Assembly (NCBI GenBank): GCA_024229615.1
Contig: JAAESG010000200.1
Coordinates: 1-32,087, forward strand
Origin: Gammaproteobacteria bacterium
GTDB taxonomy: Bacteria > Pseudomonadota > Gammaproteobacteria > GCA-001735895
Direction: 5' to 3'
Length of the DNA stretch: 32,087 bases
Below, in pieces: positions 5,966 through 31,888 of this stretch (the stretch's first letter is position 1; each line of letters opens with the position of its first letter). A program made the position numbers and the translations under genes. The notes beneath the pieces were generated by a model. It was not told where the DNA came from, ran no database searches, and saw only the letters and a list, made by a program, of their open reading frames with translations.

Positions 5966-5970
5966 TACAA

Positions 5971-7811: not shown

Positions 7812-8117
7812 CAAATCATCGTCTGGGCCAGGGCAATGTTGCCCTGGCTTTAACGACCGGGACACCAGGACCGATTGGGTTGCCTGACATGTATTACCAG
7901 GCGAGTTAGTAAAAAGCCAGACTCAAGGCGCCATCAACCTGCCAAGCTGCAAAGAGCTTTATCGTGTTACGGGATAAATTTAATGCGGGGTAGCGTAATC
8001 CTTTCCGAGATAGGCTTAGGTTACTTTTCCTATCATCTTTTTATAAATTCTGTGCTAGCCGTTTCAGTTATACAGGTTAGGCACGATCAACAGCAGGGTT
8101 ACTAACAGGACAACGAG
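7812..8117 (+). other. Gap between binding-protein and permease genes
   Basis: This 306-base gap contains a GC-rich hairpin at 7827-7848 just after the binding-protein gene. I see no gene I can support: a 76-codon open frame in it lacks a ribosome binding site and recognisable content. The arrangement suits partial termination, giving more receptor than permease. Confidence 0.5.
7827..7848 (+). terminator. Attenuator-like hairpin after binding-protein gene
   Basis: A perfect 8-bp stem, GCCAGGGC/GCCCTGGC, with a 6-base loop (extendable by two bp) lies 15 bases after the stop codon. Only a short T stretch follows, so termination is probably incomplete. Confidence 0.55.
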
Positions 8118-9966: not shown

Positions 9967-9987
9967 CACTGCAAAATAAAGACACCC

Positions 9988-12570: not shown

Positions 12571-13839
12571 ATGGAAATTTCGAGAAGAGATATTCTGCGC
12601 GCGACCGCAGCAGGTGCGGTAATAGCCGGTACGTCCGGATTACCCACGAATTTATTTGCTGCGAGTAACAAAACAGTAAAGATCGGAATGAATATTCCGA
12701 TGACTGGTGACTATGCTCCATGGGGCTTACCGGGATTGTATGGCTGTGAAATCGTCGCCAAAGACCTCAATGCAGCCGGCGGTGTGAAGATCGGCGGCGA
12801 CAACTACAATATTGAAATGGTCGCCTTCGATCATGCCTATGATACCGAGAAGGCGGTACAGGGATACAAGAAGCTGGTACTCGAAGACGATGTCAAAATG
12901 GTCATGATGCTGGGTGGGTCGACCGTTGCCTCGGTGTTGCCATGGGCGCAGCGTAAGAAAATGCTGACCACCACATTGCTGCCCAGCGATATTACCACCA
13001 AGTCGGATTACCTGATTGCTACCTGTGAATCGCATCCGCTCTACAATGTTACCGGCGTAGAATGGCTGGCCAAGAATTTCCCTAACGCCAAAACTGCCGC
13101 CATTGTCACCAATAATGATGCGGAATACGGATTGCAGTCAGCTGCTACCTACAAGGCGGCCTTCGAGGTGGAAGGAATCGATGTCATCGATGTCAATCTG
13201 CATGGATTTGATATCACCGACTTTGCTCCGATCGTCAGTTCCGTGCTGGCGAAAAAGCCCGATATTTTTTGTATGGCCACCAGCTTTTATGTTACTCCAT
13301 TGATGGAGCAACTGTATCACCAGGGTTTCAAAGGCAAGATTATTTCGTGCACGTTGGATTACTACGATGAAATCATCGCCAAGACCAGTGAGGAATTCGT
13401 CAACGGAACCATCTTCCAGTTCCCCGATTTTGACGATCCTGCGTTAAACGATAAAGGTGTTAATTTCCCAAACCCCGGGGATTTCGACGCCAAGTTCAGA
13501 AAAGATCATCCCAACGACTGGTCAGCGGTTTCCTGGGAGTATCCCGCGATTCTGTTGAACTGGATCGAAGGCGCCAAACAAGCCGGAAGTGTCGAGCCAA
13601 CCAAGGTACTGAAAGCACTTAAATCCAATAAAAACCCTGAATTTGTATTCGGTGGTGGACAATGGTGGGGCAGTCAGTTGTGGGGCCAGGACAATTCCGT
13701 TGTCGGTAGATGGCCTGTGGTCGTGGTCGAAAATGGCAAGGCCCGCATCAAGGAATTCAGAAGTGTTTCCAGCTGGTTGGCCAAGAATAAAAAGGTGCTG
13801 ATCAAGCATATGAAGGAATTAGGACTGCGTACGGTCTAG
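12571..13839 (+). CDS. ABC importer substrate-binding protein, Tat-exported, copy 2
   Basis: This is the paralogue of the receptor at 6543-7811 with the same architecture. It has a twin-arginine signal (MEISRRDILRATAAG, cleavage probably after LFAAS), then VKIGMNIPMTGDYAPWG, two lobes, and Trp-rich GGGQWWGSQLWG near the C-terminus. The ATG at 12571 follows GGAGGAG with six-base spacing; an upstream TTG in frame is less likely. It heads the only importer operon here with all five components intact. A strong terminator follows the gene, so the receptor is probably made in excess over the membrane parts. The ligand is unknown; see the tmm remnant and shared promoter site for the methylated-amine link. 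Confidence 0.92.
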   Translation: MEISRRDILRATAAGAVIAGTSGLPTNLFAASNKTVKIGMNIPMTGDYAPWGLPGLYGCEIVAKDLNAAGGVKIGGDNYNIEMVAFDHAYDTEKAVQGYKKLVLEDDVKMVMMLGGSTVASVLPWAQRKKMLTTTLLPSDITTKSDYLIATCESHPLYNVTGVEWLAKNFPNAKTAAIVTNNDAEYGLQSAATYKAAFEVEGIDVIDVNLHGFDITDFAPIVSSVLAKKPDIFCMATSFYVTPLMEQLYHQGFKGKIISCTLDYYDEIIAKTSEEFVNGTIFQFPDFDDPALNDKGVNFPNPGDFDAKFRKDHPNDWSAVSWEYPAILLNWIEGAKQAGSVEPTKVLKALKSNKNPEFVFGGGQWWGSQLWGQDNSVVGRWPVVVVENGKARIKEFRSVSSWLAKNKKVLIKHMKELGLRTV

Positions 13840-13876
13840 TTTCATTCGGTTTATTATCTACTCCTCTAGGTAATTC

Positions 13877-13910
13877 AGGAGAGGGGATGTAATTCCCTCT
13901 CCTTTTTTTT
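13877..13910 (+). terminator. Rho-independent terminator after receptor gene 2
   Basis: A perfect 9-bp stem (13877-13885 with 13895-13903) and a 9-base loop are followed by an eight-T run. It lies between the receptor gene and livH of operon 2, so permease expression must depend on readthrough or another promoter. Confidence 0.9.
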
Positions 13911-13972
13911 AAACGGCTGGCAGGTGTGCGGCGTGCTGCCGTCCAGATGAGTAATAATCCAAGAGGTAATTT

Positions 13973-14842
13973 GTGGAGCTTATTCTCCAATTCATCATAA
14001 ATGGGCTCATCCAGGGTGGTTTCTTCGCGCTGTTTGCGGTGGGCCTGGTACTCATATTTGGTGTCATGAGCGTGGTCAATTTTGCCCACGGCGAACTGGT
14101 CATGATCGGTGCCTACACGATTTGGTTACTGCACGCGCAGAATGGGTTCGGATTTATTCCGGCTATCTTCGTTGCGGTAATGCTGGTTACTATCATTGGT
14201 TTGTTGATGGAGCGATTTCTGTTCAGACCGACCCGAGATGATCCATTAGCCGGATTGATTTGCTCAATCGGCGTACTGTTTATTTTACAGGTAGTGGCGA
14301 CACTGGTGGGAGGCGATGGGCCTTCCAAGCAGGTGCCGCCGCCGTTCCACGGCACCCTGGTTTTATTTGATTTTCTGCGCATACCCTATCAGCGTATTTT
14401 CAGCCTGGTGGTATCGGTCGGAGCCTTGTCGTTGCTGTGGTACTTCCTGACTCGAACCAAACTGGGGTGGGCCTTGAGAGCAGTAGCTCTGGATCGCGAG
14501 GCCGCCGCCTTACAGGGAATCAATATCAATCGCATTTCGATGATCGCTATCGGAGTTGGCGGTGCGCTCGCAGGTCTTGCCGGTGCGCTCATGGCGCCGC
14601 TAACCAATATCAATCCACATATGGGGCATAACGTCATCATTACCGCCTTTATCGTAACCATCGTTGGTGGGGTTGGCAGCCTCTCCGGTGCGGTACTGGC
14701 GGCCGTTTTGTATGCCCTGTTTCATACCTTTGTTACGGTTTACTTCGGTGGCACCGTAGCGACCATTTGCGGGTTGATTCTGATGGTTGTGGTACTGATT
14801 GTTAAGCCGACGGGAATCATGGGTGTCAGGGTGAGCGAGTAG
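13973..14842 (+). CDS. livH: ABC importer permease, LivH family, copy 2
   Basis: The product is 289 aa, the same length as copy 1 and very similar throughout: ELILQFIINGLIQGGFFALFAVGL, SVVNFAHGELVMIGAYT, ALRAVALDREAAALQGIN. It starts with GTG preceded by GAGGTAA. The gene lies 62 bases after a strong terminator. It forms the inner-membrane channel together with LivM. Confidence 0.92.
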   Translation: MELILQFIINGLIQGGFFALFAVGLVLIFGVMSVVNFAHGELVMIGAYTIWLLHAQNGFGFIPAIFVAVMLVTIIGLLMERFLFRPTRDDPLAGLICSIGVLFILQVVATLVGGDGPSKQVPPPFHGTLVLFDFLRIPYQRIFSLVVSVGALSLLWYFLTRTKLGWALRAVALDREAAALQGININRISMIAIGVGGALAGLAGALMAPLTNINPHMGHNVIITAFIVTIVGGVGSLSGAVLAAVLYALFHTFVTVYFGGTVATICGLILMVVVLIVKPTGIMGVRVSE

Positions 14843-14844
14843 CA

Positions 14845-15822
14845 ATGATGAATAGTCTGGTGAAAAAAATCATGTTTGGCGCGGGGTTGTTGCTGGTGTT
14901 GATCGCGGTACCTCACTTCCTCAAGTTTCACCATCAGGACTTATTGATATTTCTGACCATCAATGTGCTGGTAGTGGCCAGTTATCGAATAGTCACCTTA
15001 ACAGGGGAATGGTCACTCATTCATGCTGTGATGATGGGAGTTGGCGGATATACTGCAACACTGCTGTTTAAAAACTATGAACTCGGCATGTGGTTTACTT
15101 TGCCTCTGGCGGGGGGAGTTTCCGCGCTGATTGCAGCCATACTGTGTTTCCCGTTGTTCAGGATGACCCAGTTTTATTTTCTGATCGGCTCTTTTGCGGC
15201 TGGGGAAGCCATTCGCCTGACCTGGATCCAGTATGTCAATCCGTTTGGCGGCACCGGTGGATTGAGCGGTGTGGAACCTCCTATTATCGGCGGCATCGAT
15301 TTCCTCGATGCGATTCCGTACTACTACCTTACTCTGGTTGTGGTCAGCATTTGCCTGTTTATTCTGTATCGAATCGAGAATTCCAGAATCGGATTAACCT
15401 TGCACGCCGTGCATTGGAAGGCTGCCCTGGCCGAATCGGTCGGGGTTGATACCTGGCGGTACCGGGCACTGGCATTTATCGTCGGGTCTTTTTTCGTTGG
15501 CGTTGCGGGTGGGCTCAAGGTTCACTATCTTGGCACGATCACGCCGAACCAGTTTGGTGTTGGTTATATGGTGTTTATCCTGATTTGGGTAATCGTGGGT
15601 GGTTATAACAAGTTTTATGGGCCGGTTATCGGTGTTATCGTGTTAACCATGTTCGATGAGTCGATCCGAGGCTTCGATGAAATCCGCCCCGCTATTTACG
15701 GCGCGATGTTAATTGTTTCGATTCTGTTTTTGCCGCTCGGCCTGGAAAGTATTCCGGCGAAGCTAAAGGCCTGGTTTGGTGTCGGTTCTGCTCCCGACGA
15801 GCCACCCTTAACCGATAAGTAA
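14845..15822 (+). CDS. livM: ABC importer permease, LivM family, copy 2
   Basis: This is the second permease subunit, 325 aa. It is collinear with copy 1, including [39 protein letters not shown], the coupling region with [17 protein letters not shown], and the DEPPLTDK tail. It begins two bases after the livH stop, where two ATGs in tandem are available. Confidence 0.92.
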   Translation: MMNSLVKKIMFGAGLLLVLIAVPHFLKFHHQDLLIFLTINVLVVASYRIVTLTGEWSLIHAVMMGVGGYTATLLFKNYELGMWFTLPLAGGVSALIAAILCFPLFRMTQFYFLIGSFAAGEAIRLTWIQYVNPFGGTGGLSGVEPPIIGGIDFLDAIPYYYLTLVVVSICLFILYRIENSRIGLTLHAVHWKAALAESVGVDTWRYRALAFIVGSFFVGVAGGLKVHYLGTITPNQFGVGYMVFILIWVIVGGYNKFYGPVIGVIVLTMFDESIRGFDEIRPAIYGAMLIVSILFLPLGLESIPAKLKAWFGVGSAPDEPPLTDK

Positions 15823-15839
15823 AACGGAGTGAGATAACT

Positions 15840-16595
15840 GTGCCCGTACTGGAAATTAAAAACGTGACCAAACAGTTCGGTGGTTTAACTGCGCTTAACG
15901 ACATTAGTTTTAATATCGAAGAGGGTGAGATCAGGGGTTTGATCGGTCCCAATGGTGCGGGCAAAAGCACTATGTTCAAGAATATTGCCGGTTTTTACGC
16001 GCCGACCAAAGGCAGTATCGTGTATCAAGGTAAGCAAATTGAGGGTAAGAAGCCGCATACGATTTCCGAGCTGGGTATTGTGCGTACCTTTCAGGAAACC
16101 ACCCTGTTCCAGGAGTTAACCGTATTTGAAAATGCCCTGGTGGGCTGTCATATCAATGCGCGAACTGATTTGTTTTCGGCCATTTTCGGGCTCGACAGGA
16201 AAAAACAAAAGGCCGCCGAAGAAAAAGTAATGGAAGTGCTTGATTTTATGGGACTGAGTGATCGAAAAAATCAGCTTGCATCTGAATTGCCGTTGGGATC
16301 CCAACGAGCCCTGGCGATATCTGTCGCACTGGTTTCCGAACCCAAATTGATGCTGATGGACGAGCCCTTTGCCGGAATGAATCCGGAGGAAACCAACCAC
16401 ATGATGGATTTGACTCGCAAGGTGCGGGAATCCGGTATTACCATCGTCCTGGTTGAGCACGACATGAAGGCAGTCATGGGTTTGTGCCACTATCTTACAG
16501 TACTCAACTTTGGGCAGTTACTGGCAGAAGGAACGCCCGAGGAAATTCGAAACAATGACAAAGTCATTGAGGCCTACCTGGGCGGAGCAAACTGA
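15840..16595 (+). CDS. livG: ABC importer ATPase, LivG family, copy 2
   Basis: The product is 251 aa. It shows Walker [11 protein letters not shown]-loop [10 protein letters not shown], variant signature LPLGSQRAL, Walker B LMLMDEP and switch His LVEHDMKAV. It starts with GTG after CGGAGTGAG. The livF start codon follows the stop by one base, so the two ATPases are translationally coupled. Confidence 0.93.
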   Translation: MPVLEIKNVTKQFGGLTALNDISFNIEEGEIRGLIGPNGAGKSTMFKNIAGFYAPTKGSIVYQGKQIEGKKPHTISELGIVRTFQETTLFQELTVFENALVGCHINARTDLFSAIFGLDRKKQKAAEEKVMEVLDFMGLSDRKNQLASELPLGSQRALAISVALVSEPKLMLMDEPFAGMNPEETNHMMDLTRKVRESGITIVLVEHDMKAVMGLCHYLTVLNFGQLLAEGTPEEIRNNDKVIEAYLGGAN

Positions 16596-16596
16596 A

Positions 16597-17304
16597 ATGC
16601 TGTTAAAGGTCACCGATATCCATGTTCACTACGGTCATGTCGCAGCCCTTAAGGGGATATCGCTGGAAGTGGAAGAGGCGGGCTTCGTTACGCTGATTGG
16701 TTCGAATGGCGCGGGCAAGAGTACCACCCTGCGTGCTATTTCCGGCCTCGATCACCCCAGTGCGGGCGTCATCGTTTTTGAAGGTGAGCGCATTGAACGC
16801 CTGTCAGCGGACAAGATTGTCAGGTTGGGAATTGCGCATGTACCTGAAGGCCGCAGGGTGTTTAAGGACCTGACCGTAACGGAGAATCTGTTACTGGGTG
16901 CGTTTACGCGAGATGATCAAGCGGAGATTGAAAAAGATCTCGAGGCCGTTTTCGAACACTTTCCAAGGCTGCGCGAACGCAAGGACCAATCGGCGAGAAC
17001 CATGAGCGGCGGTGAGCAACAAATGGTCGCTATTGGCAGGGCACTCATGTCGAGACCCAAGCTATTGCTGCTGGATGAGCCATCGCTGGGTTTGGCGCCG
17101 GTTATTGTTCAGGAGATAGCCAGAATTCTGGTAGAGATAAACAAGCGAGGAGTATCGGTTGTTCTGGTAGAACAAAACGCGGAACTTGCCCTGGAACTGG
17201 CACAGCACGGATACGTTCTGGAAACCGGAAATATAGCCCTCGAAGGTAAGGCCAGCGGTTTGATGGATAACGATCACGTGCGCAAAGCATATCTGGGCAT
17301 CTAG
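16597..17304 (+). CDS. livF: ABC importer ATPase, LivF family, the only intact copy
   Basis: The product is 235 aa. It has Walker A GSNGAGKST, Q-loop around PEGRRVF, signature MSGGEQQM, Walker B LLLLDEPSLGL, and switch region LVEQNAELAL (Gln where His is usual, as in LivF proteins). The ATG at 16597 matches the family start MLLKVTDIHVHYG. A longer frame from 16510 overlaps livG and is rejected. Because livF of operon 1 is destroyed, this subunit probably serves both importers. The C-terminus RKAYLGI is identical to that preserved in the pseudogene. Confidence 0.94.
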   Translation: MLLKVTDIHVHYGHVAALKGISLEVEEAGFVTLIGSNGAGKSTTLRAISGLDHPSAGVIVFEGERIERLSADKIVRLGIAHVPEGRRVFKDLTVTENLLLGAFTRDDQAEIEKDLEAVFEHFPRLRERKDQSARTMSGGEQQMVAIGRALMSRPKLLLLDEPSLGLAPVIVQEIARILVEINKRGVSVVLVEQNAELALELAQHGYVLETGNIALEGKASGLMDNDHVRKAYLGI

Positions 17305-17613: not shown

Positions 17614-19008
17614 TCAGCCCCGGGTTTGATGTTCAGAACAATCAGAGCTTACCGATGTACTGTGGTTGTGGACGCGTGCATCGTATAGCTCGATACGGCC
17701 ACCACCGAGGGCGTGGGCGTGATGCATGGCATGGCTCGCATGTCTTAACAATTCCTCAGCGGCTTGCTCATGGCTTTCGCAATGAGATGCGCCAATACTG
17801 GTTGTCACGAAAATCTCCGAGCTTGATATCATCAATGGTGTCAGAAACGCATCCTGGATTTTCTGTGCGAAATCGGTCACCGATGACTGTCCGCGGGTAG
17901 TTTCGATCAGCAATCCCCAGCGTTCATTTTCCAGACCCGTGATGCTGTCCTGGGGACCGATAAGTTTACCCAGGCGTTGTGCGACTTCGCGGGATAAACG
18001 ATCAATCGCATCGTTATCCGCCGATTCCAGGGCATTGAGTAAGCGATTCAGGTGGACCACATAAACGGTCAGTTGATGACCGTCGGTTGCCGTACGCAGA
18101 ATGGCATTTTGCAGTCGATCATTGAAAAGTTGTGGCGTGGGGAGACCGGTTACATCATCGTAGAGTATACTGATCAGTCGATTTCGGCTGTAGTTCTCCT
18201 TGCTTAAGGTGTCTGTAATGAATCCTTCCAGTCCAAGCCATTCATGGTTGCTGGAAAATATGCCTTTTCCGCACTCCCATACCCACTTGATCTTGTTATC
18301 GGCGGTCGTGATGCGATATGTTTTTTCAAATCGGCGGTTTTCGCGAATACCGCTTTGCACTTCTTCCCAGACTGCTTGCTGGTCATCGGGATGAATCATT
18401 GAGCCATAAGACAGTCGCTTGTTATTGATGATATCCTCGGGGTGATAGCCAGTCAGTTTATAACTGCTGCCACTGACATACTCCATGGTCCAGTCGGGAT
18501 TGTTTCTGCATCGGTACACCATACCCGGCAAATCATTGAGCAACGCGGTCAGGGTACGTTGATTTGCAAGCACCAGCTCCTCTTCACTAACGCGATCGCT
18601 GATATTGTTGATTGTGCCGACAATGCCGTTGATCTGCTGATCCGATGAGCGTGCAACGGCAGCATGTATTTCAGTCCAAAGGTAGTTACCGTCCGAGATC
18701 AGGAAGCGAAATGCCTGGGTGCAGTGATCCACTTCACCGCATTGCATTTTTGCGAAGATTTCCTTACTGCGCGATCTGTCCTGGGGATGCACATAGTCGA
18801 TGAAGTTGGTGCCGATGCACTCGTTGACTTCAAACCCCGAAAGTTGAGACCAGCTCCGGTTTAAAAAGCACCACTGACCTTGCAGATCAATTTCGAACAC
18901 CACCTGCGGCAAGCACCGTATTATGTTTCCATAGCGCTCATCGGTAACCAGGTCTGGCGCCTGGTTTTTAGCGGAAGATTCTGGACTGTTGTGGAGTTTG
19001 ATTCCCAA
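17614..19008 (-). CDS. PAS-PAS protein with a degenerate GGDEF domain, 464 aa
   Basis: Two PAS/PAC modules (about residues 25-140 and 150-272) precede a diguanylate-cyclase-like domain that begins DDVTGLPTPQLFNDRL. The GGDEF active-site motif is replaced by ENERW, and the metal-binding Asp after the first strand is not in its usual context. Catalytic c-di-GMP synthesis is therefore unlikely. It has no transmembrane segment and no EAL domain. The only possible start in frame is a TTG at 19008 with AGGAG just two bases away, so initiation may be weak or unusual. It follows the response-regulator gene by 95 bases on the same strand, which suggests a role in the same signalling pathway, possibly as a ligand sensor or GTP/c-di-GMP-binding effector. 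Confidence 0.85.
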   Translation of the reverse strand: MGIKLHNSPESSAKNQAPDLVTDERYGNIIRCLPQVVFEIDLQGQWCFLNRSWSQLSGFEVNECIGTNFIDYVHPQDRSRSKEIFAKMQCGEVDHCTQAFRFLISDGNYLWTEIHAAVARSSDQQINGIVGTINNISDRVSEEELVLANQRTLTALLNDLPGMVYRCRNNPDWTMEYVSGSSYKLTGYHPEDIINNKRLSYGSMIHPDDQQAVWEEVQSGIRENRRFEKTYRITTADNKIKWVWECGKGIFSSNHEWLGLEGFITDTLSKENYSRNRLISILYDDVTGLPTPQLFNDRLQNAILRTATDGHQLTVYVVHLNRLLNALESADNDAIDRLSREVAQRLGKLIGPQDSITGLENERWGLLIETTRGQSSVTDFAQKIQDAFLTPLMISSSEIFVTTSIGASHCESHEQAAEELLRHASHAMHHAHALGGGRIELYDARVHNHSTSVSSDCSEHQTRG

Positions 19009-19103
19009 TGCTCCTGCCCTGTTTCTGTTATTTTAGGACACCATTTTCAGGTGTAATTCTCGGTATCACAATTCCCTGTGAGGGGTAGTACCATGGGTGT
19101 AGT

Positions 19104-19778
19104 TCAGGACTCCCCTCGCGGGTTGTTGGAATAACCGTTTTCAAATGCCCATACGGCGACTTCAAGTCGTGAACTCAAGTTTAGTTTGCGCAGGATATTT
19201 TTCACGTGAACTTTCACCGTTCCTTCGCTTATCTCAAGCTCCCGGGCGATCAATTTATTGTTCTTGCCTTCGGCAATCAGTCCTACAATTTCCTCTTCTC
19301 GGCTCGTAAACTCAACCTGATTTGGTGGCGGCGAAAGGTTGTCGCTGCGCAGTACGTTAGCCAAAAGTGTAGAAATGGTTTCATCAAGAACGGTCTGTCC
19401 CTCAACCGCGCGATGTAACTTCATCAGAATTTCTTCTGGTTCCATATCCTTGAGCAGATAACCATCGGCACCGCTTCTGAGTGTGGAAACGATATCGGCT
19501 TCCGAGTTTGAAACGGTTAGCATGATGACCAGTAATTCCGGGTTATCTGTCTTCAGTTGCTTCAATACGGCAAGGCCGTCCATTCCCTTCATATTAAGAT
19601 CGAGTAAAACCAGATCCGGCTGCAGTTCCCGGGTCAGCTCGATGCCGCTAGGTCCATCTGCCGCGTCAGCCACGAGGTTGAAACTCGTATCGAGCTGAAA
19701 CAGTTGTTCTGAACCTTTGCGAAACAGGGGATGGTCGTCGATGACCAGAACAGAATAAGGCGGATCGTGATCAATCAT
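19104..19778 (-). CDS. NarL/FixJ-family response regulator, 224 aa
   Basis: The receiver domain has the acidic pair at 14-15 (VLVIDDHPLF), phospho-acceptor Asp60 (LVLLDLNM) and the conserved Lys in YLLKDM. It is followed by a LuxR-type helix-turn-helix: TSREEEIVGLIAEGKNNKLIARELEI, then SEGTVKVHVKNILRKLNLSSR. It overlaps the kinase gene by eight bases, so they are a cognate pair. The neighbouring methylated-amine genes carry a shared upstream element with NarL-like TAC cores, which makes it the best candidate regulator. The resemblance to NarL is clear, but the signal need not be nitrate. Confidence 0.92.
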   Translation of the reverse strand: MIDHDPPYSVLVIDDHPLFRKGSEQLFQLDTSFNLVADAADGPSGIELTRELQPDLVLLDLNMKGMDGLAVLKQLKTDNPELLVIMLTVSNSEADIVSTLRSGADGYLLKDMEPEEILMKLHRAVEGQTVLDETISTLLANVLRSDNLSPPPNQVEFTSREEEIVGLIAEGKNNKLIARELEISEGTVKVHVKNILRKLNLSSRLEVAVWAFENGYSNNPRGES

Positions 19779-20991
19779 TGCCGGCGTCAGCCATGGCTTT
19801 GCTTGAGCGCGGTACTTGTTGAACTAACTGTACTAATTTCTGAGGTTTGAAAGAGATTGTTATTTTAGTGCCACCGCTCGATTGTTCCTCGACTGTAAAC
19901 TTGCCATTCAAGGTTTGACTGCGTTCCTGCATGATAATAAGGCCGTGATGTTTTGCCCGCCTTTGCATTTGATCTATCCCCACGCCATCGTCTTCGATAG
20001 ATATCTGTATGCAATGGTCGTGGTCCTGGTGCAGCATCACCCGGGCACGTTTGGCATGCGAGTGCCTTACGGTATTGGATAATGCTTCCCGAATGATATG
20101 TTGAATCTGCATTTCCTCGTCGGTGGTCAACTCGTCGCTGCCCAGTCGGTTATCGAGTTCGAACACGATATTGCTGCGTTTTCCAAACTCGGCTATCGAT
20201 TCTTCAATCGCCTGATTGAAGTTTTCTCCGTTCATCGTCAAACGGAATATCGTCATCAATTCGCGCAGCTGACGATAGGCTACTTTGAGATTGCCACGAA
20301 GTTCCTGGATCACCAGTTCGACTTCGCTCGAGTCACGCTGATTTTCAGTCATTCCATTTTTAAATATCGATTGCAGCCGACTTGCCTGAATCTTCAGGTA
20401 GGTGAGTGACTGCGCCAATGAATCATGCAGTTCTCTGGAGATGGTTGCCCGCTCCTGTTGTAGCGCTCGGCGGTGGTTGACCTGTGCCAGGCGAGTCGCA
20501 CAGATGACATCGGCGAATCCCTGGGCCAGAATTTCGACTACCTGGTGCCGGGTTTCCCTGACCTTTTGTGCACTTTCGCATATCAGTACCAGTACGGCGT
20601 ACTCGACACTGGCCTCGCAATTTATCCGGGTCGCTTTAACGAGTAGATTGGGTTGATTGTCAGCGCAATACCAGAACCCCGAGCTTGACCTGGCGTGCTC
20701 GAGGGAGCGGGCATAATTCTGTACGCTCAAACCATAGTTCGAGATATCTCCGTTACTGGCGATCAGGGTAGCCTGCGAGTCGTCCATCGCGTAGTGGTAT
20801 ATTGCGCTGGTCTGTATCGGCAGCAGGTCTTTGATACTGCTCAGCATGGGACGATAAGGATCGGTAGAATCGGGTTTCGTCAGAATGCTGAACAGGGTGG
20901 TATTGAGCAACTTGTAGGCAGTACAGCAATCGCGCTGGCTTTCATCCTTCAATTCCATACTCGTCTGCCGAGCAATATCGAGTGTCTGCAT
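19771..20991 (-). CDS. Soluble NarX-like sensor histidine kinase, 406 aa
   Basis: The N-terminal half (about residues 20-165) looks like a GAF-type sensor with several Cys residues (22, 23, 109, 125, 138, 164). It is followed by the HisKA_3 dimerisation box ISRELHDSLAQSLTYLKIQ with phospho-acceptor His189. The catalytic domain has the N box IIREALSNTVRHSHAKRA, G1 box DDGVGI and a final GGTKITISF. There is no transmembrane segment, unlike true NarX/NarQ, so the signal is cytoplasmic. The start has GGGGGA just upstream. It lies divergent from the second GcvT-like gene, across a 367-base promoter region. Confidence 0.92.
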   Translation of the reverse strand: MQTLDIARQTSMELKDESQRDCCTAYKLLNTTLFSILTKPDSTDPYRPMLSSIKDLLPIQTSAIYHYAMDDSQATLIASNGDISNYGLSVQNYARSLEHARSSSGFWYCADNQPNLLVKATRINCEASVEYAVLVLICESAQKVRETRHQVVEILAQGFADVICATRLAQVNHRRALQQERATISRELHDSLAQSLTYLKIQASRLQSIFKNGMTENQRDSSEVELVIQELRGNLKVAYRQLRELMTIFRLTMNGENFNQAIEESIAEFGKRSNIVFELDNRLGSDELTTDEEMQIQHIIREALSNTVRHSHAKRARVMLHQDHDHCIQISIEDDGVGIDQMQRRAKHHGLIIMQERSQTLNGKFTVEEQSSGGTKITISFKPQKLVQLVQQVPRSSKAMADAGND

Positions 20992-21358: not shown

Positions 21359-22465
21359 ATGACATTTAAAAGAAACACTGCGCTTGCCGAGCGTCATGTT
21401 GCATTGGGCGCCGAGCTTGAAGAATGGAATGACATGGGAATGGCCTGGGAATACGATCAGGATGTCAATGATGAACATCGAGCGGTGCGCAATGCAGCGG
21501 GCTTGTTCGACGTATCCGGCCTCAAGAAAGTTCATATACTCGGACCCGACGCACTCGCCGTTGCGGATCACATGATTACCCGCGACATGAGTAAAATTTC
21601 CTGTGGTCGTTCAGTCTACGCGATCATACTGGACGAAAACGGTGGTTTTACCGACGATTGCATCATGTTCAACCTGGCTCCGAATCACATTATGATGGTA
21701 CATGGCTCTGGCACGGCGATGACCCAACTGCAGAAATCTGCCGAGGGCAAGAACGTTCAGGTCCAGTTTGATGATGATTTGCATGATCTGTCATTTCAGG
21801 GACCGAAGTCGGTGGAGGTTCTGAAAGATCATACGCCCATCGATCTCGAGGCTTTGAAATATTTCCATCAACAGTCGACCACGCTGTTTGGTCGCGACTG
21901 TATCATTTCACGTACCGGCTTTTCAGGCGAGAGAGGCTACGAGGTTTTTGCCAAGTCCGATGACGCGGTGATTATCTGGGATTCGATTCTCGAACACGGT
22001 CGGCCCGCGGGCGTGCTCCCCTGTACCTTTAACTGTATCGATGCGATCCGGGTTGAGGCGGCACTGCTGTTTTATCCGTTCGATATGAATGAATCCAACA
22101 CGCCCTGGGAAGTGGGGCTGGGATTTGCGGTTTCCAAGGACAAACAGGGAGACTACCGGGGTAAACAGGCCTGCATGGATTCGATGGGCAAGGAAAAGAT
22201 CAAGGTATGTGGCATCATCGCGGATAGCGATAGCGCCGTGGATGCAGAAGCTGAACTGTTTCAGGACGATCGCAAGGTCGGGAAAGTGACGGCACCGAAT
22301 TTTTCACCGGTGTTGAATCAATCGATAGCCCTGGTGCAGATCGAGCCTGCGCTTGCCGAACCGGGTATCCAGGTTGAAGTCAGGGGTGGAGGCACTTCGT
22401 GCACCGCTACGACCACCAGCCTGCCATTTTACAATCCTAGCAAAAGTAATCGCGAACAGACTTAA
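21359..22465 (+). CDS. GcvT-family aminomethyltransferase-like protein, 368 aa (second paralogue)
   Basis: This is the paralogue of the minus-strand gene at 2930-4030 and begins similarly: ALGAELEEWNDMGMAWEY against ALGAEMGEWNNMAVAFSF. Folate-binding family marks are AGLFDVSGLKKV, TDDCIM (conserved acidic residue), QGPKS, SRTGFSGERGYEVF and NTPWEVGLGFAVSKD. The start has GGGGA eight bases before the ATG. It sits directly upstream of tmd under a shared promoter element, with only a hairpin between them. The most likely role is THF-dependent capture of one-carbon units from TMA oxidation, analogous to the GcvT-like domain of TMAO demethylase. This is inference from fold and context; direct demethylation of another N- or S-methyl substrate is equally possible. 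Confidence 0.88.
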   Translation: MTFKRNTALAERHVALGAELEEWNDMGMAWEYDQDVNDEHRAVRNAAGLFDVSGLKKVHILGPDALAVADHMITRDMSKISCGRSVYAIILDENGGFTDDCIMFNLAPNHIMMVHGSGTAMTQLQKSAEGKNVQVQFDDDLHDLSFQGPKSVEVLKDHTPIDLEALKYFHQQSTTLFGRDCIISRTGFSGERGYEVFAKSDDAVIIWDSILEHGRPAGVLPCTFNCIDAIRVEAALLFYPFDMNESNTPWEVGLGFAVSKDKQGDYRGKQACMDSMGKEKIKVCGIIADSDSAVDAEAELFQDDRKVGKVTAPNFSPVLNQSIALVQIEPALAEPGIQVEVRGGGTSCTATTTSLPFYNPSKSNREQT

Positions 22466-22792: not shown

Positions 22793-25003
<2,211 letters not shown>

Positions 25004-25050: not shown

Positions 25051-25162
25051 ACTTCCCGCGATCTGCCAGGAGTGCGCTGATCGATAGACACTGGCTCACC
25101 CGAATCATTCTTAAAGTTTGCAAGCCTGACGCAAATTTAATTCTGACAGCGATTTGGAAACC

Positions 25163-27319
25163 ATGATTGACTCCGGACATGAACCTCAGACAGTAACCCG
25201 CATATTGTTCCAGGATTTCCCTACCTGGATGATGGTGGTCTTTTACCTGGCGGCGATCGCTGCCATTGTGGCCTTTGCTTACGGATGTTACGTGCAGCTA
25301 CGCAAGTATCGGCGCGGCCAGTCTCTTTCACTACCGGGAGTCGTGCAGGGAGTGCTGGCGATGGCTGGAGAGCTACTCAGTCATCGCAACCTGAAGCGTC
25401 GTGATCGCAGCGCGGGTCTGGCACATGGATTGATATTTTTTGGATTCGCGATGTTGTTCGTGGGCACTGCGACTATCACCCTCGAGTACGATATCCTGGC
25501 ACCGATCACGGGCTGGAGGTTCTGGTACGGTTCTTTTTACCTGTGGTTTTCCCTGTTCGTCGATCTGGCAGGTCTGGCGCTTATCGGCGGTCTACTTTAC
25601 ATGATGTATCGGCGCAAATGGCTGGCCTTGCCCAAGCTCGATTATACGCGTCCCGATCGGAAACCGGATGAAGCGGATTTCGACCGCAGCTGGTATCGTC
25701 GCGAGGACTGGCTGTTTCTATGGACGTTGATTTTAATCGGCGTCACCGGCTTTTTACTCGAAGCCGACCGACTGTTGTGGTTGCAAGATGACGCTACGGT
25801 GTGGAATTACCGCTGGTGGTCTCCGGTCGGTGCGCTGCTCGCCGGGTTACTGGATGGGCTGGGAGTGACGAATGCTGCTGCCGAAAGTGCTCGCTACGTA
25901 CTCTGGTGGATACACGGCTTGCTCGCTTTTTGTTTCATCGGGATACTGCCATTCACCAAGGTCAAACATATCTTCACCGCGATGGCATCGCTCTCCTTGC
26001 GCCATCCGAAGCCGGCAGCGTGCCTGCCGAGTACGGATATCGAGGCCGATACCATCGGCCATCGATTGATCACCGATTTTACCTGGAAACAGTTATTGCA
26101 TCTGGATGCCTGCACCAAGTGTGGTCGTTGTCACGAAGCCTGCCCGGCGAATGCCACGGGCTTCCCCCTGTCACCTCGCGATCTGGTACTAAGCCTGCGT
26201 GAATTGGCCAATAGCAAGTTGCAAAGTCGCGTCTTGCCGGGGACAGAAGCCTTGCAGGCCGTCGGTGACGGTATCAATCAGGTTCGTCACGAAACGCTCT
26301 GGTCCTGTCGCAGCTGTGCTGCCTGCGTCGAAATATGCCCGGTCGGAATAGAACATGTGCCGATGATCGTCGAGATGCGCAGGGCTCTGGTGGAAGATGG
26401 TGAAATGGACCCTGCGGTTCAAACCGCGTTGCAAAATGTACAGAAACGGGGTAACTCGATCGGCGAAAACAAACGTCGGCGAGCGGCCTGGACCAAGAAG
26501 CTTGATTTTGAAATCAAAGACGCTCGCAAGGAGGTCGTAGAGGTCCTGTGGTTTGTCGGTGATTACGCTTCCTTCGATCCGCGCTATCAGAAGGTCGCAC
26601 AAACTTTCGCCCGAATCTTGCGTGCCAGTGGCGTTGATTTCGGCATTCTTTACGAAGCCGAAATGACCGCCGGTAATGATGTTCGACGGGTCGGTGAAGA
26701 AGGTTTGTTTGAGTATGTCGCAGAAGCCAACATCGAAACCCTGTCGGCTTGCGAGTTCGAGACCATCGTCACCACCGACCCGCATAGTTTTAACACGCTC
26801 AAAAATGAATATCCCGATCTCGGCGGTGAATTTAACGTTGTGCACGCTACGCAAATGCTTGAGCGCATGCTCGTAGAAGACAGAATTCCACTACGGCGTA
26901 AGCTTGAACGGCGCGTAACTTACCACGACTCCTGCCATCTGGGTCGGCTTAACCAGGAGTACGGTGCACCGCGCGAAGTACTGTCGAGCATCGGTGTGGA
27001 TATTGTTGAAATGCCACGTAACTATTGCAACTCGTTTTGTTGTGGTGCCGGTGGCGGCCGAATCTGGACTCCGGATCCGCTGGAGATGGAGAAACCAGCT
27101 GAAAATCGGATGCGCGAAGCCGCACTAATCGAAGATATCGATGCGTTTGTGGTGAACTGCCCGAAGTGTATGAACATGTTCGAAGATGCTGTTAAATCGA
27201 CGGGCAACGACGATCGACTGGAGGTTGTCGAGGTTATCGAACTGGTTGCCGCCTGCATGGACCTTGAGCCTGTCGCTACGGTGACGGAAGCAGCAATTGA
27301 AGCAGAGCAAGAGCAGTGA
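25163..27319 (+). CDS. Membrane ETF:quinone oxidoreductase-like Fe-S protein (EtfD/DgcB type)
   Basis: It likely takes electrons from reduced ETF and delivers them to membrane quinone, as proposed for mycobacterial EtfD and for DgcB of dimethylglycine catabolism. The N-terminal ~290 residues are a NarI-like membrane domain with several helices and candidate heme His residues (WWIHGLLAF, TKVKHIF). Two 4Fe-4S motifs follow (CTKCGRCHEACP, CRSCAACVEICPVG), then two CCG-type domains. The second CCG domain is complete (HDSCHLGR, FCCGAGGG, NCPKCMNMF). The first has lost its cysteines (TTDPHSFNT where TTCPHCFNT is usual). I choose ATG 25163; a TTG nine bases upstream is possible. The next gene overlaps its stop. 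Confidence 0.9.
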   Translation: MIDSGHEPQTVTRILFQDFPTWMMVVFYLAAIAAIVAFAYGCYVQLRKYRRGQSLSLPGVVQGVLAMAGELLSHRNLKRRDRSAGLAHGLIFFGFAMLFVGTATITLEYDILAPITGWRFWYGSFYLWFSLFVDLAGLALIGGLLYMMYRRKWLALPKLDYTRPDRKPDEADFDRSWYRREDWLFLWTLILIGVTGFLLEADRLLWLQDDATVWNYRWWSPVGALLAGLLDGLGVTNAAAESARYVLWWIHGLLAFCFIGILPFTKVKHIFTAMASLSLRHPKPAACLPSTDIEADTIGHRLITDFTWKQLLHLDACTKCGRCHEACPANATGFPLSPRDLVLSLRELANSKLQSRVLPGTEALQAVGDGINQVRHETLWSCRSCAACVEICPVGIEHVPMIVEMRRALVEDGEMDPAVQTALQNVQKRGNSIGENKRRRAAWTKKLDFEIKDARKEVVEVLWFVGDYASFDPRYQKVAQTFARILRASGVDFGILYEAEMTAGNDVRRVGEEGLFEYVAEANIETLSACEFETIVTTDPHSFNTLKNEYPDLGGEFNVVHATQMLERMLVEDRIPLRRKLERRVTYHDSCHLGRLNQEYGAPREVLSSIGVDIVEMPRNYCNSFCCGAGGGRIWTPDPLEMEKPAENRMREAALIEDIDAFVVNCPKCMNMFEDAVKSTGNDDRLEVVEVIELVAACMDLEPVATVTEAAIEAEQEQ

Positions 27320-28692
27320 TGTCGGCAATCATGATGGCTCATAGTGACCATTCGATTAACGAATTGCTTGATCAGGCTCGGATCAACCAGGATCCCTATC
27401 GTGCAGCTGCCCTGCATCCGTGGCTGGATGGTTCACAACGGGCGATTTGCGAAAAAATCATTTTCGCACACCGCCGTCAGCCGCGATTATTCGCACAGGC
27501 CAGTTATACACCGGTATCGCTTTTGCAGCGACTCGCGCGGGAAAAGGATCAGATTACACTGAACAAACTGGTTAAGAATACAGCCACGCCAACCAAGGTA
27601 TTGAAACAACTGTTGCAGGGTGATGATGACAGGCAGCGTCAGGATGCTGTCGCCGCTCATCCGAATGCCAGCGCCGCTTTGCTGGACTCGATTGAAGATC
27701 AGGAATCGTCTGTTCGACGCGAGGCAATTTGTTATAACCAGAACACCGGCCTGATGCAGATGTACAGATTGTTGGAGCGTGCATCGTTACACGAATGTAA
27801 GGGAATGGCGCAAAATCCACACGCTGATTCGACGCTGCTGCGTCAATTGTGGACTGCATTTGGCGATCAATATTTACGTGCCGAAATTGCCAGCCACAGC
27901 AATTGTCCGACCGAACTGCTAAGCGCTGCACTAAACAGCGAATCAACCTTGTTAAGGCGCAAAGCAGCCGGCAATGCAAACTTATCGGACTCGCAGCTTG
28001 TGGATCTATTGACAGATAGTAACGCCCAGGTTCGAGTAGCATCACTGCGGCGCCTCGAACACGCGACGCTTTCACTGATTGATGATCCGGCTCGTCGGGT
28101 GCGTCGTGAAATGGCCCGTAAATCGGTGCTCGATTCACAACTGATTAAAAATCTCGCAGATGATGAAGATCATTGGGTACGTCGCTGGGTAGCACGAAAT
28201 TCAGTCGCACCCGAATCCGTACTGAGAAAACTGGCTAAGGACGAACAAACCGAAGTTCGGCGTGGGGTCGCGCGTAACTCATCCACGCCTGTCGATTTAA
28301 TCATCGAACTGGCATCCGATGCGGAATCCTGGGTACGCGCCGCTGTTGCGATTCGCAGTGATCTGGACGAGGAGATTATCCAGCAACTGCACGACGATGA
28401 ATCGGTGGATGTGCTCGCCGGTCTCGGCCGCAATCCGGCTTCGCCACAAGCTCTGCTTGCGCACATCGCCGTACACCCGGATCGGGATGTTCGCAGGTCG
28501 GTGGCGCTTAATCCGCGGGCGTCATCCGAAGTGCTGGAGCGGCTGTTGGAAGATCCGTATCCGATTAACCGTGCGACTCTGTGCCGGCACCCAGCCTTGG
28601 GCGAGGATGAACTGTGGCAATTAACCGACGATGCGCAAGAGCAGGTGCGATTCAGTGCCGTGCAGCAATTGTGCTCGCGCGGCGCTAGCTAA
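27319..28692 (+). CDS. LRV/HEAT-like repeat protein, about 457 aa
   Basis: Most of the protein is a tandem array of repeats of about 26 residues with the pattern LAxDxxxxVRxxVAxNxxxPxxLLxx. Examples are LAKDEQTEVRRGVARNSSTP and VHPDRDVRRSVALNPRASS. This fits the leucine-rich-variant (LRV) class of HEAT-like alpha solenoids. The Cys-rich Fe-S N-terminal domain seen in the Azotobacter LRV protein is absent; only scattered Cys residues occur. The ATG at 27319 shares bases with the stop codon of the membrane oxidoreductase gene, and a GTG three bases earlier is possible. It lies between that gene and etfBA, so a scaffold or assembly role for the ETF-oxidoreductase complex is plausible. It has no signal peptide or helix. 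Confidence 0.85.
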   Translation: MSAIMMAHSDHSINELLDQARINQDPYRAAALHPWLDGSQRAICEKIIFAHRRQPRLFAQASYTPVSLLQRLAREKDQITLNKLVKNTATPTKVLKQLLQGDDDRQRQDAVAAHPNASAALLDSIEDQESSVRREAICYNQNTGLMQMYRLLERASLHECKGMAQNPHADSTLLRQLWTAFGDQYLRAEIASHSNCPTELLSAALNSESTLLRRKAAGNANLSDSQLVDLLTDSNAQVRVASLRRLEHATLSLIDDPARRVRREMARKSVLDSQLIKNLADDEDHWVRRWVARNSVAPESVLRKLAKDEQTEVRRGVARNSSTPVDLIIELASDAESWVRAAVAIRSDLDEEIIQQLHDDESVDVLAGLGRNPASPQALLAHIAVHPDRDVRRSVALNPRASSEVLERLLEDPYPINRATLCRHPALGEDELWQLTDDAQEQVRFSAVQQLCSRGAS

Positions 28693-28758: not shown

Positions 28759-29556
28759 ATGAAAATACTGGTACCGGTAAAGCAGGTGGGCGTGCTCGAT
28801 GAAGATTTCGAGCTACGCGATGACGGGCGTGATGTAGACCCCGATTATCTCGAACATGAGCTCAACGAGTGGGACGACTATGCCTGGGAAGAAGCGCTGC
28901 GTTTGCGCGAAGAATATGGCGACGATGTAGAAATTATTCCGCTGACGGTTGGCCCCGAAGAAGCCGAAGATGGTTTGCGTAAATGTCTTGCCAAAGGTGG
29001 CGAGCGCGGAATTCGTGTGTGGGATTCAGCGATGGAAGATTCAGATCCGATGGCTATCTCGCGGGTAATCGCCAGTGTTGCCGAGCGTGAGCAGGTTGAT
29101 ATGGTGTTTGCCGGTACGCTGGCTTCGGATCACGGTTTTGCGCAAACCGGAGTGAGTGTTGCGGGTCGACTGGGGTGGCCGCAGGCGGCCGTGGTTTCAA
29201 ATCTCGAATATCAACCAGGCGCCAGCACTGCGCAGTTGCGACGTGAACTGGAAGGTGGTCTCGAGGAAGTAATGACGATCCAGTGCCCAGCGGTACTGAC
29301 GATCCAGCTTGGGATTAACGAACCTCGTTACGCATCATTGCGTGGTATCAAGCAGGCCAAGGCCAAGCCGATCGAGGAACTCAGCCACACCGACCTGGGC
29401 TTGAGCGATGATCAGGTTGGTGTGGCAGGATCCGCGTCACGAGTACGCCGCATGTACGTGCCGGAAAAAGGCCAGGCTGAATTGATCGAAGGTACTTCGG
29501 CAGAACAGGCCCAACGTATTGCCGAAATCATCAAACAAATGCAGGGGGAAGCGTAA
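28759..29556 (+). CDS. etfB: Electron transfer flavoprotein beta subunit
   Basis: The product is 265 aa. It begins MKILVPVKQVGVLDEDFELR and carries LNEWDDYAWEEALRL, the AMP-binding region with VFAGTLASD, and the recognition loop INEPRYASLRGIKQA. In that loop Leu194 corresponds to the Leu that docks into trimethylamine dehydrogenase in the Methylophilus ETF. Overall resemblance is to the Methylophilus TMADH-partner ETF rather than to the general beta-oxidation ETF. It overlaps etfA by one base. It forms a soluble heterodimer with EtfA. Confidence 0.95.
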   Translation: MKILVPVKQVGVLDEDFELRDDGRDVDPDYLEHELNEWDDYAWEEALRLREEYGDDVEIIPLTVGPEEAEDGLRKCLAKGGERGIRVWDSAMEDSDPMAISRVIASVAEREQVDMVFAGTLASDHGFAQTGVSVAGRLGWPQAAVVSNLEYQPGASTAQLRRELEGGLEEVMTIQCPAVLTIQLGINEPRYASLRGIKQAKAKPIEELSHTDLGLSDDQVGVAGSASRVRRMYVPEKGQAELIEGTSAEQAQRIAEIIKQMQGEA

Positions 29557-30518
29557 TGGCTGAAATACTCGTAATAGCGGAACAACGACGCGGTGATTTG
29601 ATTGCCGCAAGCCTGGAATGTATCGCTGCCGCGGTTGAGTTGAAACAGCAGGGCGACCGTTCGGTTGCGGTATGTATACTCGCACCATCACCGCAGGATT
29701 ATGTCGAACAATTGTCGGCAGCGGGGGTCGATGAAATTATCACCATCGAGGCCGCGCAGGCCGAATTTCAAAGTGATGAATTCAGCGCGACGCTATTGTC
29801 ATTGATCGAACAGCGACGGCCTGAACTGGTGCTGACAGCACATAGCATAGACGCCTGGGGTTATGCACCGGCGCTGGCTATCCAGGGTGGCTTCGGATAT
29901 GCCAGCGATGTATTTGCTATACGCTACGAAAACAACGAGCTGATTGCGACCCGTGCCGGTTATGCCGAAAAAGTACATGTCGAAGTTGATTTCCCCGGGC
30001 GGACAACCGTACTGCTGACAGTACGCGGCAATACTTTCAAGCCTGTCGAAGCCAATGGAAGTCCACAGCTAAGCAGTTTCGAGACTAAAGCGATTTCTGC
30101 GCGCAGTACCCATGAAGAATATATCGAGCCGGAATCCGGTGGCGAAGTCGACATTACCCAGGCTGAGTACATGCTGTCTATCGGTCGTGGTATCTCGGAG
30201 GAAGATAATGTGGAGGAATTTGCCGAACTGGCCGAGTCGATGGAATTTACCCTGGGTTGTTCGCGACCGATCGCCGATAACGGCTGGTTGCCAAAGTATC
30301 GCCAGGTTGGTCAGTCCGGAAAGACGGTCAGCAATTGCTCGGTATACCTGGCGCTTGGTATTTCCGGCTCGGTGCAGCATATGGCGGGTATGAAGCACGT
30401 GCCCAACATCATCGCGGTCAACACCGACCCCGAGGCATCTATTTTTAATATCGCGCGTTACGGCGTGGTCGCCGATATCTTCGATATTGCCGAAGAACTT
30501 CGAAATCACTTCGAGTGA
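29556..30518 (+). CDS. etfA: Electron transfer flavoprotein alpha subunit
   Basis: The product is 320 aa and carries the FAD-binding C-terminal domain: SIGRGISEEDNVEEF, CSRPIADNGWLPKYRQVGQS, LALGISGSVQHMAGMKHVP and AVNTDPEASIFNIARYG. The pattern CSRPIADxGWLPKxRQVGQSGK matches the alpha subunit that accepts electrons from Methylophilus TMADH. Start and stop are shared tightly with neighbours (TAATG overlap with etfB). It receives single electrons from the Tmd 4Fe-4S cluster and hands them to the membrane oxidoreductase two genes upstream. Confidence 0.95.
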   Translation: MAEILVIAEQRRGDLIAASLECIAAAVELKQQGDRSVAVCILAPSPQDYVEQLSAAGVDEIITIEAAQAEFQSDEFSATLLSLIEQRRPELVLTAHSIDAWGYAPALAIQGGFGYASDVFAIRYENNELIATRAGYAEKVHVEVDFPGRTTVLLTVRGNTFKPVEANGSPQLSSFETKAISARSTHEEYIEPESGGEVDITQAEYMLSIGRGISEEDNVEEFAELAESMEFTLGCSRPIADNGWLPKYRQVGQSGKTVSNCSVYLALGISGSVQHMAGMKHVPNIIAVNTDPEASIFNIARYGVVADIFDIAEELRNHFE

Positions 30519-30542: not shown

Positions 30543-31601
30543 ATGCAAACGCTTGAATCTGCGAGGGCCAGTTATCGGGTACGCAGTGTACGCTGGGGAT
30601 TCTACTGGGCGCTGTGGTGCGCGGTTCTCTGGGGTGCCTGGTATGTACCCGGAACGGCGGTCTGGTACGAGGCCCCATTTGTCGAGTTGGGCTCAGCTAG
30701 CCAGGGTGATTTCCTGCTCGCTGCCGCGGTGATCACCGCGCTCAGTTCGTTGGCGATATTGTTCTTCCTGTTCGTCTGGATCGGTGTGCTCGAAAAGTGG
30801 GGGGAGTATGCGCGCACTTTCCGACAGATACGTATCTCGAAATGGTACTACCTGGGTGCAATATTTGGTGGACCCTGTGCGCTGTTTGGATCATATCTGG
30901 CGATTGGTTACGTGGGTCCTGTCTTCGCGGCGATTGCGGCGTTAATGTATCCGGTAGTCGGCGCCACCCTGGCCCGATTCTGGTATTACGAAAAAATGAG
31001 CGCACGCGCCGTGATTGGAATCATCGTCATTCTGATCGGGGGAGCCTCGATTTATGCTCCGGGACTGTTGAGCGAATTTAGCAATCCGGAAGGCGGTGCC
31101 TGGCTCGGATACCTGGGCGGTGTCATGGCGGCTGTTGGTTGGGGGGTAGAGGGCGCTATTGCCGGGCGTGCCCTGGATGTCAGCGATCCCGATGTTGGTA
31201 TTACCCTGAGATTTACCGGGGAAGCTTTCTACTGGATCTTCCTGATTCTTCCGGCGATAGCAATATTCAGCGATGCCGATGTAATCGGCCTGATTCTGGC
31301 CGCGTTCAATTTTTCGGCGATGGTCTGGATCCTGCTGGCCGGTGTCAGTTTCGCGTTCTGCTATGTCGCCTGGTATAAATCTTTTCCGTTGATCGGTGTT
31401 GGAAGGGGCCAGGCTATCGCAGCTTTGTATGGTGTTTTTGCGGTGATTTTCCTTTCCATTTTTACCCTTAGCCTTCCCGAGTGGCACTTTCTGATCGGTT
31501 TGACACTCACTGTACTGGGCGGTTTTATAATGTTTACCGAGAAGACGGAAATGCTCGAAGTCATCCGTAGCAGCAACCTGGCCGTGAGTGCCGAGGTATG
31601 A
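30543..31601 (+). CDS. DMT-superfamily (EamA-like) transporter, 352 aa
   Basis: About ten hydrophobic helices are arranged as two similar halves, as in drug/metabolite transporters. The first half has LWCAVLWGAWYVPGTAV and GPVFAAIAALMYPVVGATLARFWY, and the second has the corresponding GVGRGQAIAALYGVFAVIF. The length is somewhat above the usual ~300 aa because of an N-terminal extension and a loop after helix 1. It begins 24 bases after etfA with GGAGAGG upstream, so it belongs to the tmd-etf operon. It may export or import an amine, amino acid or intermediate of TMA oxidation; direction and substrate cannot be read from sequence. Confidence 0.82.
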   Translation: MQTLESARASYRVRSVRWGFYWALWCAVLWGAWYVPGTAVWYEAPFVELGSASQGDFLLAAAVITALSSLAILFFLFVWIGVLEKWGEYARTFRQIRISKWYYLGAIFGGPCALFGSYLAIGYVGPVFAAIAALMYPVVGATLARFWYYEKMSARAVIGIIVILIGGASIYAPGLLSEFSNPEGGAWLGYLGGVMAAVGWGVEGAIAGRALDVSDPDVGITLRFTGEAFYWIFLILPAIAIFSDADVIGLILAAFNFSAMVWILLAGVSFAFCYVAWYKSFPLIGVGRGQAIAALYGVFAVIFLSIFTLSLPEWHFLIGLTLTVLGGFIMFTEKTEMLEVIRSSNLAVSAEV

Positions 31602-31888
31602 CCAAGCTACACATGAAAGGTTTTGTGCTGTGCCTGCTGGAAGAGTATCCGGAAGGGCTGTGGGATTCTGAAATAGCGGGAAAAGTACTCGAAGAGTTTC
31701 ATCACTCCGGCGACTATTGGCGGGGTGAAGTACGAGCCACGCTTACCGACCTGTTTTCGGGTGCTCTATTGGAAGAAGTTGAAGATCGACTGGATGAAGA
31801 AGAGTATTTTGGGGCCGATAAAATATCGGTTAAATTCAGGCTAAGCGCCTTCGGGCGCCAGAGAATGGTTGAAACAGGATTGCTTTAG
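31598..31888 (+). CDS. Small winged-helix-like protein, 96 aa
   Basis: Not firmly recognised. Its ATG overlaps the TGA of the transporter gene (ATGA), so translation is coupled. The pattern of an N-terminal helix (KGFVLCLLEEYPEGLWDSEIAGKV), then GEVRATLTDLFSGALLEEVED and a beta-hairpin ending VKFRLSAFGRQRMVETGLL, looks like a PadR- or MarR-like winged helix. The middle is strongly acidic (DRLDEEEYFG), unusual for DNA binding, so a protein-interaction role is possible. Confidence 0.65.
   Translation: MTKLHMKGFVLCLLEEYPEGLWDSEIAGKVLEEFHHSGDYWRGEVRATLTDLFSGALLEEVEDRLDEEEYFGADKISVKFRLSAFGRQRMVETGLL

Follow-up and report, generated by a model that had tools for sequence, protein, structure and literature searches.

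A repeat-solenoid protein encoded between dgcB and etfBA in trimethylamine dehydrogenase operons and its possible role in tethering electron transfer flavoprotein

Electron transfer between proteins by means of a mobile domain has its classic model in the trimethylamine dehydrogenase (TMADH) and electron transfer flavoprotein (ETF) of Methylophilus. We have analyzed a 32,087-nucleotide contig of a gammaproteobacterium (JAAESG010000200.1 of assembly GCA_024229615.1; the whole stretch is referred to as the window) that carries genes of such a system in the order tmd-dgcB-LRV-etfB-etfA. The third of these genes encodes an LRV/HEAT α-solenoid protein, which keeps its place in related operons and which, we suggest, may tether ETF to the membrane oxidoreductase DgcB. 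In the portions of text available from earlier work, the ETF of the Methylophilus ETF-TMADH complex is presented as a mobile carrier anchored through its domain III (PMC8097209), and dmd-tmd in Methylophilus is mentioned without an LRV gene (PMC8399692).

The solved structure nearest to the window DgcB is that of its homologue, mycobacterial EtfD (9ojn, “iron-sulfur-binding reductase”, E 1.3e-75; PMC13083937). EtfD has a long C-terminal region of its own, whereas the window operon encodes a short DgcB tail and a separate solenoid. As far as its accessible part goes, the 2026 paper on EtfD gives an AlphaFold3 model that lays the long disordered C-terminus of the mycobacterial protein against ETF, and describes such a region as short or absent in FadF and DgcB (PMC13083937). 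The dimethylglycine operon dgcAB-etf (fixAB) of P. aeruginosa and Vibrio combines an FMN (flavin mononucleotide) enzyme, DgcB and ETF, as does the window operon; no inserted repeat protein is named in the available part of the Vibrio dgcAB_fixAB description (PMC12093977). Searches of full-text literature, with subscription papers mostly outside the coverage, returned nothing on TMADH or DgcB operons that include an LRV/HEAT protein; no paper on a DgcB-EtfB fusion was met, and no search was aimed at that fusion by name. The repeat family is known; its use in a TMADH operon, its spread and the fusion alternative described below appear to be undescribed in the searchable literature.

The LRV gene occupies positions 27319..28692 of the plus strand and encodes 457 amino acids, its nature being supported by the open reading frame and by Pfam, PDB and AlphaFold2 results. 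Its ATG at 27319 shares one base with the dgcB stop codon (27317-27319), its own stop codon is at 28690-28692, and etfB and etfA follow. A sequence-only reading of the window had proposed an α-solenoid of about 26-residue repeats, translationally coupled to the gene upstream and followed by etfBA; the repeats, the overlap with the upstream gene and the gene order are confirmed here. The protein consists of tandem 26-residue repeats: at a lag of 26 or 52 residues, the autocorrelation of identities is 0.172-0.173, and at 78 it is 0.164, while the maximum over 1000 shuffles is 0.133. It belongs to the Pfam family LRV (PF01816; E 7.3e-19, 67.2 bits vs. a cut-off of 21.6), also scores above the cut-off of LRV_2 (E 5.9e-10) and matches HEAT at 2.2e-6; NCBIfam holds no family for it. 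Modeling by AlphaFold2 from nine orthologues gave a confident all-helical solenoid with a mean pLDDT of 91.8 and 33 helices of at least four residues. The gene is annotated as “hypothetical protein” in Paracoccus aminovorans and Azoarcus sp. KH32C, and the family is single-copy in the source genome, where the second match (E 0.08) is noise.

Among solved sequences, the nearest to the window protein is the Azotobacter vinelandii LRV protein (1lrv, E 7.7e-6), which shares the repeat family PF01816 with it. Azotobacter-type LRV proteins carry a 4Fe-4S cluster. The window protein differs in being about twice as long, in sitting in a TMADH-DgcB-ETF operon and in lacking the conserved Fe-S cysteine set: no such set was found in the alignment of LRV orthologues, where two columns contain at least 70% cysteine, and of the six cysteines of the window protein only that at position 196 is strongly conserved (25/28). 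The Fe-S LRV domain was likewise not among its Pfam matches up to E 1. We therefore rejected identity with the Azotobacter-type Fe-S protein. No membrane-like stretch is present in the window protein.

The scaffold subunit A of PP2A, a HEAT solenoid, works as a scaffold. Its chains were the top Foldseek matches of the LRV model, at low TM scores (E 1.4e-7 with a TM of 0.27 for one A chain, mostly 0.2-0.35 for PP2A matches), and 1lrv reached a TM of 0.57 by target length. VIA-align gave Z scores of 12-15 to alphaReps, Integrator, PP2A and 1lrv (12.4 for 1lrv; ca. 10-13 for PP2A A chains, many at a high root-mean-square deviation). Such likeness among repeat proteins may reflect a common arrangement only and give no indication of function, and we claim no kinship with PP2A beyond the level of the fold.

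The genes around the LRV gene define the system to which it belongs. The tmd gene (22811..25003, plus strand) encodes a full-length orthologue of M. methylotrophus TMADH (1338 bits across 728 residues to 1djn), so that the trimethylamine context assumed by the sequence-only reading is that of a bona fide TMADH operon. Residues C31, C346, C349, C352 and C365, the flavin-linking cysteine and the Fe-S cysteines, are invariant in six operon TMADHs. The dgcB gene (25154..27319, plus strand; its start codon is probably the ATG at 25163) encodes a membrane Fe-S/CCG oxidoreductase of the EtfD/DgcB family with Fer4 and CCG (5.4e-22) Pfam matches. The β and α subunits of ETF, both identified by Pfam, are encoded by etfB (28759..29556) and etfA (29556..30518) on the same strand. 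Since a separate ETF (38% identical) and ETF-QO are encoded elsewhere in the source genome, the operon ETF looks dedicated to the TMADH operon.

We searched for the LRV protein in a sample of 369 genomes of the class and a sample of 398 genomes of the phylum. Some LRV-like match (E <= 1e-6) was present in 27 of the 369 class-sample genomes. Of the 30 such matches, 22 short ones were rejected as relatives of the family, since the stretch read around them matched none of dgcB, etf and tmd. The full family (E <= 2.2e-45) was present in seven genomes in eight copies, source included, with dgcB upstream of seven and etfB downstream of six; the missing sides are contig ends. In the reverse test, close DgcB proteins (at least 60% identical) were found in six of the same 369 genomes, and LRV adjoins all seven copies; the DgcB of a seventh genome, which is distant (37%), has no LRV beside it. 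Within the genus the family occurs in one of 30 other genomes (G027, 55% identity), the operon being patchy there. Operons of this kind are rare in the phylum sample, where only the source genome matched at E <= 1e-15.

A scan of named genomes with the LRV protein as a single query found no relative, presumably because its sequence drifts too fast. The same scan was made with a TMADH alignment, and the results that follow refer to the best 80 of 580 relatives. TMADH was at least 71% identical in 26 of them, the dgcB-to-etfB interval was readable in 21, and an LRV gene lies in this interval in 18 of the 21. The LRV-bearing loci belong to Methylophilaceae, Methylophaga, Paraburkholderia, Caballeronia, Cupriavidus, Hyphomicrobiaceae/Methyloceanibacter and Rhodobacteraceae. 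Two of the five unreadable loci (L053 and L071, the stretch of the latter ending inside dgcB) come from genomes that have the LRV operon. Three further genomes that entered the scan through a TMADH of 62-65% identity (L070, L075 and L080) have an operon of the order tmd (73-76%)-dgcB-LRV-etfBA as well, and in L070 and L080 the second tmd lies directly upstream of dgcB in it. On plasmids, DgcBs of 59-63% identity adjoin LRV in seven of seven records, and none of the 24 records with DgcB below 59% identity (23 of them listed by name) has an LRV match. LRV is likewise encoded in the operon of Methylophilus sp. QUAN, together with an ETF nearly identical to the one crystallised in complex with TMADH (1o94, 3clu).

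As can be seen, the association of LRV with TMADH-DgcB-ETF genes spans α-, β- and γ-proteobacteria, and the possibility, considered in the sequence-only reading, that it is confined to one species is refuted. Full-length orthologues with readable flanks always have dgcB upstream and etfB downstream, and in 26 of the 30 loci measured the LRV start (chosen by script) is no more than 31 bp from the dgcB stop. It is thus well supported by gene order that the LRV protein belongs to the TMADH-ETF-DgcB system. A regulatory or unrelated cytoplasmic protein merely carried along by the operon would fit the fast evolution of LRV and its repeated loss (both described below), but holding one exact place across three proteobacterial classes would not be expected of such a protein, and the 22 other LRV-like matches lie apart from operon genes in the stretch read; we regard this explanation as highly improbable.

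In three loci (L052, L065 and L077) LRV is absent, the dgcB-etfB distance being -4, 61 and 97 bp, respectively, and no LRV was found elsewhere in these three genomes. The DgcB tail, measured after the last conserved helix, differs between the two groups: it is 11-34 residues long (median 18) and mostly acidic in 31 DgcBs accompanied by LRV, while the three proteins of the same clade that lack LRV have tails of 9, 10 and 2 residues. Of ten LRV-less DgcBs at a greater distance, nine have tails of 0-12 residues and the tenth, from Shinella, continues for 350 residues into EtfB. In the window, the acidic tail of 18 residues (27263..27316, plus strand) is our proposed docking peptide.

The Shinella protein is one of a group in which DgcB, a linker and EtfB are encoded in one open frame without stops, found in eight genomes or records (the Shinella plasmid L137, L083 and L151-L156; the carriers are this plasmid and several metagenome-assembled genomes). 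The linkers, of 90-131 amino acids, join the DgcB C-terminus to EtfB at the junction where the LRV gene otherwise lies, a covalent linker thus standing for the solenoid. The fusion of the Shinella sp. PSBB067 plasmid (L137, 7001-10066) has a 91-residue linker with coding-like base periodicity, and that of L083 (2-1651) has a 131-residue linker. A search of 15 genomes yielded six more full-length fusions (L151-L156, linkers of 90-109 residues) and the L083 genome again; one genome had an unfused DgcB plus LRV, and seven had no match. By eye, the linkers resemble one another in their helical-looking first stretch, and most end in a proline/alanine-rich part. No LRV orthologue was present in the seven whole fusion genomes searched, which gave two short weak matches only (8e-9 and 7e-6), and the Shinella plasmid record had no LRV match. 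The Shinella record was the only one to cover most of the query in the plasmid fusion search. The phylum sample contained no fusion; in one of its genomes (G444), etfA precedes dgcB and the stretch read contains no LRV.

In a quick tree of DgcB with SH-aLRT support, all seven fused proteins of sufficient length for placement group together (support 100), and their neighbor is a clade of 26 members (98). The latter comprises 23 proteins accompanied by LRV and the three LRV-less ones; DgcBs of Actinobacteria and haloarchaea, which are without LRV, lie outside. This placement makes a single gain of LRV probable, followed by two losses or more (in L052 with L065, and in L077). Thus, neighboring DgcB clades differ at the DgcB-EtfB joint: one has a covalent linker there, the other a separate solenoid and a DgcB tail.

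Distance co-variation over 22 operons, a small sample that gives no proof of contact, yielded partial correlations of LRV with EtfA of +0.39, with EtfB of +0.37, with DgcB of +0.29 and with TMADH of -0.45. The negative value argues against a maturation factor for TMADH (attaching its covalent FMN) or for ETF (loading FAD, flavin adenine dinucleotide, or AMP). An operon shared with tmd and etfBA would suit such a factor, and TMADH made recombinantly in E. coli is incompletely flavinylated. Against this, the TMADHs of the LRV-less operons depart from conserved positions only 1, 1 and 4 times, and solved ETF chains orthologous to the Methylophilus operon ETF exist, some of them recombinant. We consider a TMADH or ETF maturation role very unlikely.

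The main rival explanation is that LRV helps DgcB to assemble or mature: it would hold the apo-protein or its cytoplasmic domain until Fe-S clusters and membrane insertion are complete, and would then leave. The closeness of the LRV start to the dgcB stop in most loci, the confinement of LRV to one DgcB clade and the positive partial correlation with DgcB are in line with this possibility; moreover, EtfD was the only match in the PDB search with DgcB, which gave no solved DgcB that would speak for unaided assembly. However, the two independent LRV-less lineages keep nearly all positions invariant in LRV-accompanied DgcBs (4, 4 and 8 departures in L052, L065 and L077), fused DgcB-EtfB proteins do without LRV, and the correlations with EtfA and EtfB are equally high. 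On balance, a DgcB assembly factor seems unlikely, if less so than a factor acting on TMADH or ETF.

The co-variation of distances, the DgcB tail and the gene fusion point to the DgcB-ETF junction as the site where LRV acts. The sequence-only reading had offered a docking scaffold or a maturation factor; because fusions replace LRV at the same junction and because of the DgcB tail, the scaffold is now favored, its mechanism staying conjectural. We propose, as a reading that we find plausible and about evenly balanced, that LRV is an adaptor tethering ETF to the DgcB C-terminus. In the trimethylamine respiratory branch, electrons would pass from TMADH through ETF and DgcB to quinone, with LRV as an accessory subunit: one surface of the soluble protein would bind the C-terminal tail of membrane-bound DgcB and another EtfAB, so that the carrier would stay close to its membrane acceptor rather than diffuse freely, and electron transfer might gain in efficiency. 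The solenoid fold and the lack of a conserved cysteine set and of a membrane-like stretch also count for a tether, as do the constant position of LRV between dgcB and etfB and the modeled contact of the EtfD C-terminus with ETF.

If the solenoid does tether ETF to DgcB, ETF need not diffuse freely in the TMADH system, and the coupling of methylamine oxidation to respiration in bacteria gains a missing part; under tethering, one fused gene should replace three. More tentatively, and with doubt slightly the stronger, ETF, in textbooks a freely diffusing electron carrier, may be held at the C-terminus of the EtfD/DgcB family by at least three kinds of tether, namely a disordered region in mycobacterial EtfD, the EtfB linker in the fusion clade, and an acidic tail with the LRV solenoid in the TMADH operon, that of Methylophilus included; decades of work on the paradigm TMADH-ETF pair would then have left out one of its natural partners.

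Several observations weigh against the tethering proposal. The rate of evolution of LRV is about double that of its neighbors (mean distance 0.95 vs. 0.26-0.53 in the 22 operons), and LRV has been lost at least twice with the operon intact, so it is not strictly needed. The tail is barely acidic in some DgcBs accompanied by LRV (L046-L048), the LRV-less outgroup DgcB L145 has a 12-residue tail, and tail shortening, seen in two independent losses only, could be a by-product of LRV deletion. The enzyme encoded beside the fusions is not always TMADH, unlike in the window operon: in five of the six longest fusion loci, the stretch read around the fusion contained no TMADH gene (among the five, the L151 contig ends inside dgcB), and the fusion may serve another enzyme.

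In ETF-β, departures from conserved positions number 3, 3 and 4 in L052, L065 and L077, one of those in L065 being a start-codon letter, vs. at most 2 in 27 LRV-bearing operons; with two independent losses, we regard this as a lead, not as support. Residue 196 of etfB (29344-29346), in the recognition loop of ETF-β, is glycine in all 27 LRV-bearing operons and serine in two sister LRV-less operons.

Other genes of the window surround the operon. Upstream of tmd, a GcvT/aminomethyltransferase-like protein is encoded at 21359..22465 on the plus strand (GCV_T and GCV_T_C; PF01571, 1.8e-69), and such a gene recurs near many, but not all, TMADH operons. Downstream of etfA are genes of an EamA/DMT-type transporter (30543-31601) and of a 96-residue protein without a Pfam family (31598-31888). 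Their homologues lie close to TMADH operons of other genera too (L051, L053, L054, L057, L076, L077 and L138), are annotated in Paracoccus and Azoarcus as a DMT transporter plus a small hypothetical protein, and are candidates for a transporter/regulator pair for methylamines. Farther upstream of the operon lie two tandem, near-duplicate sets of branched-chain-type ABC transporter genes (6543-10740 and 12556-17304), each with a binding protein, two permeases and an ATPase; at 4264-6315, a UDP-glycosyltransferase-like gene is followed by two overlapping EutQ-like cupin genes that resemble a tandem duplication. Divergently from the operon, the minus strand at 17614-20991 carries genes of a LuxR-type response regulator, of a PAS-GGDEF protein and of what by eye looks like a histidine kinase, and similar regulator genes are found near the operon in L042, L043, L045 and Azoarcus.

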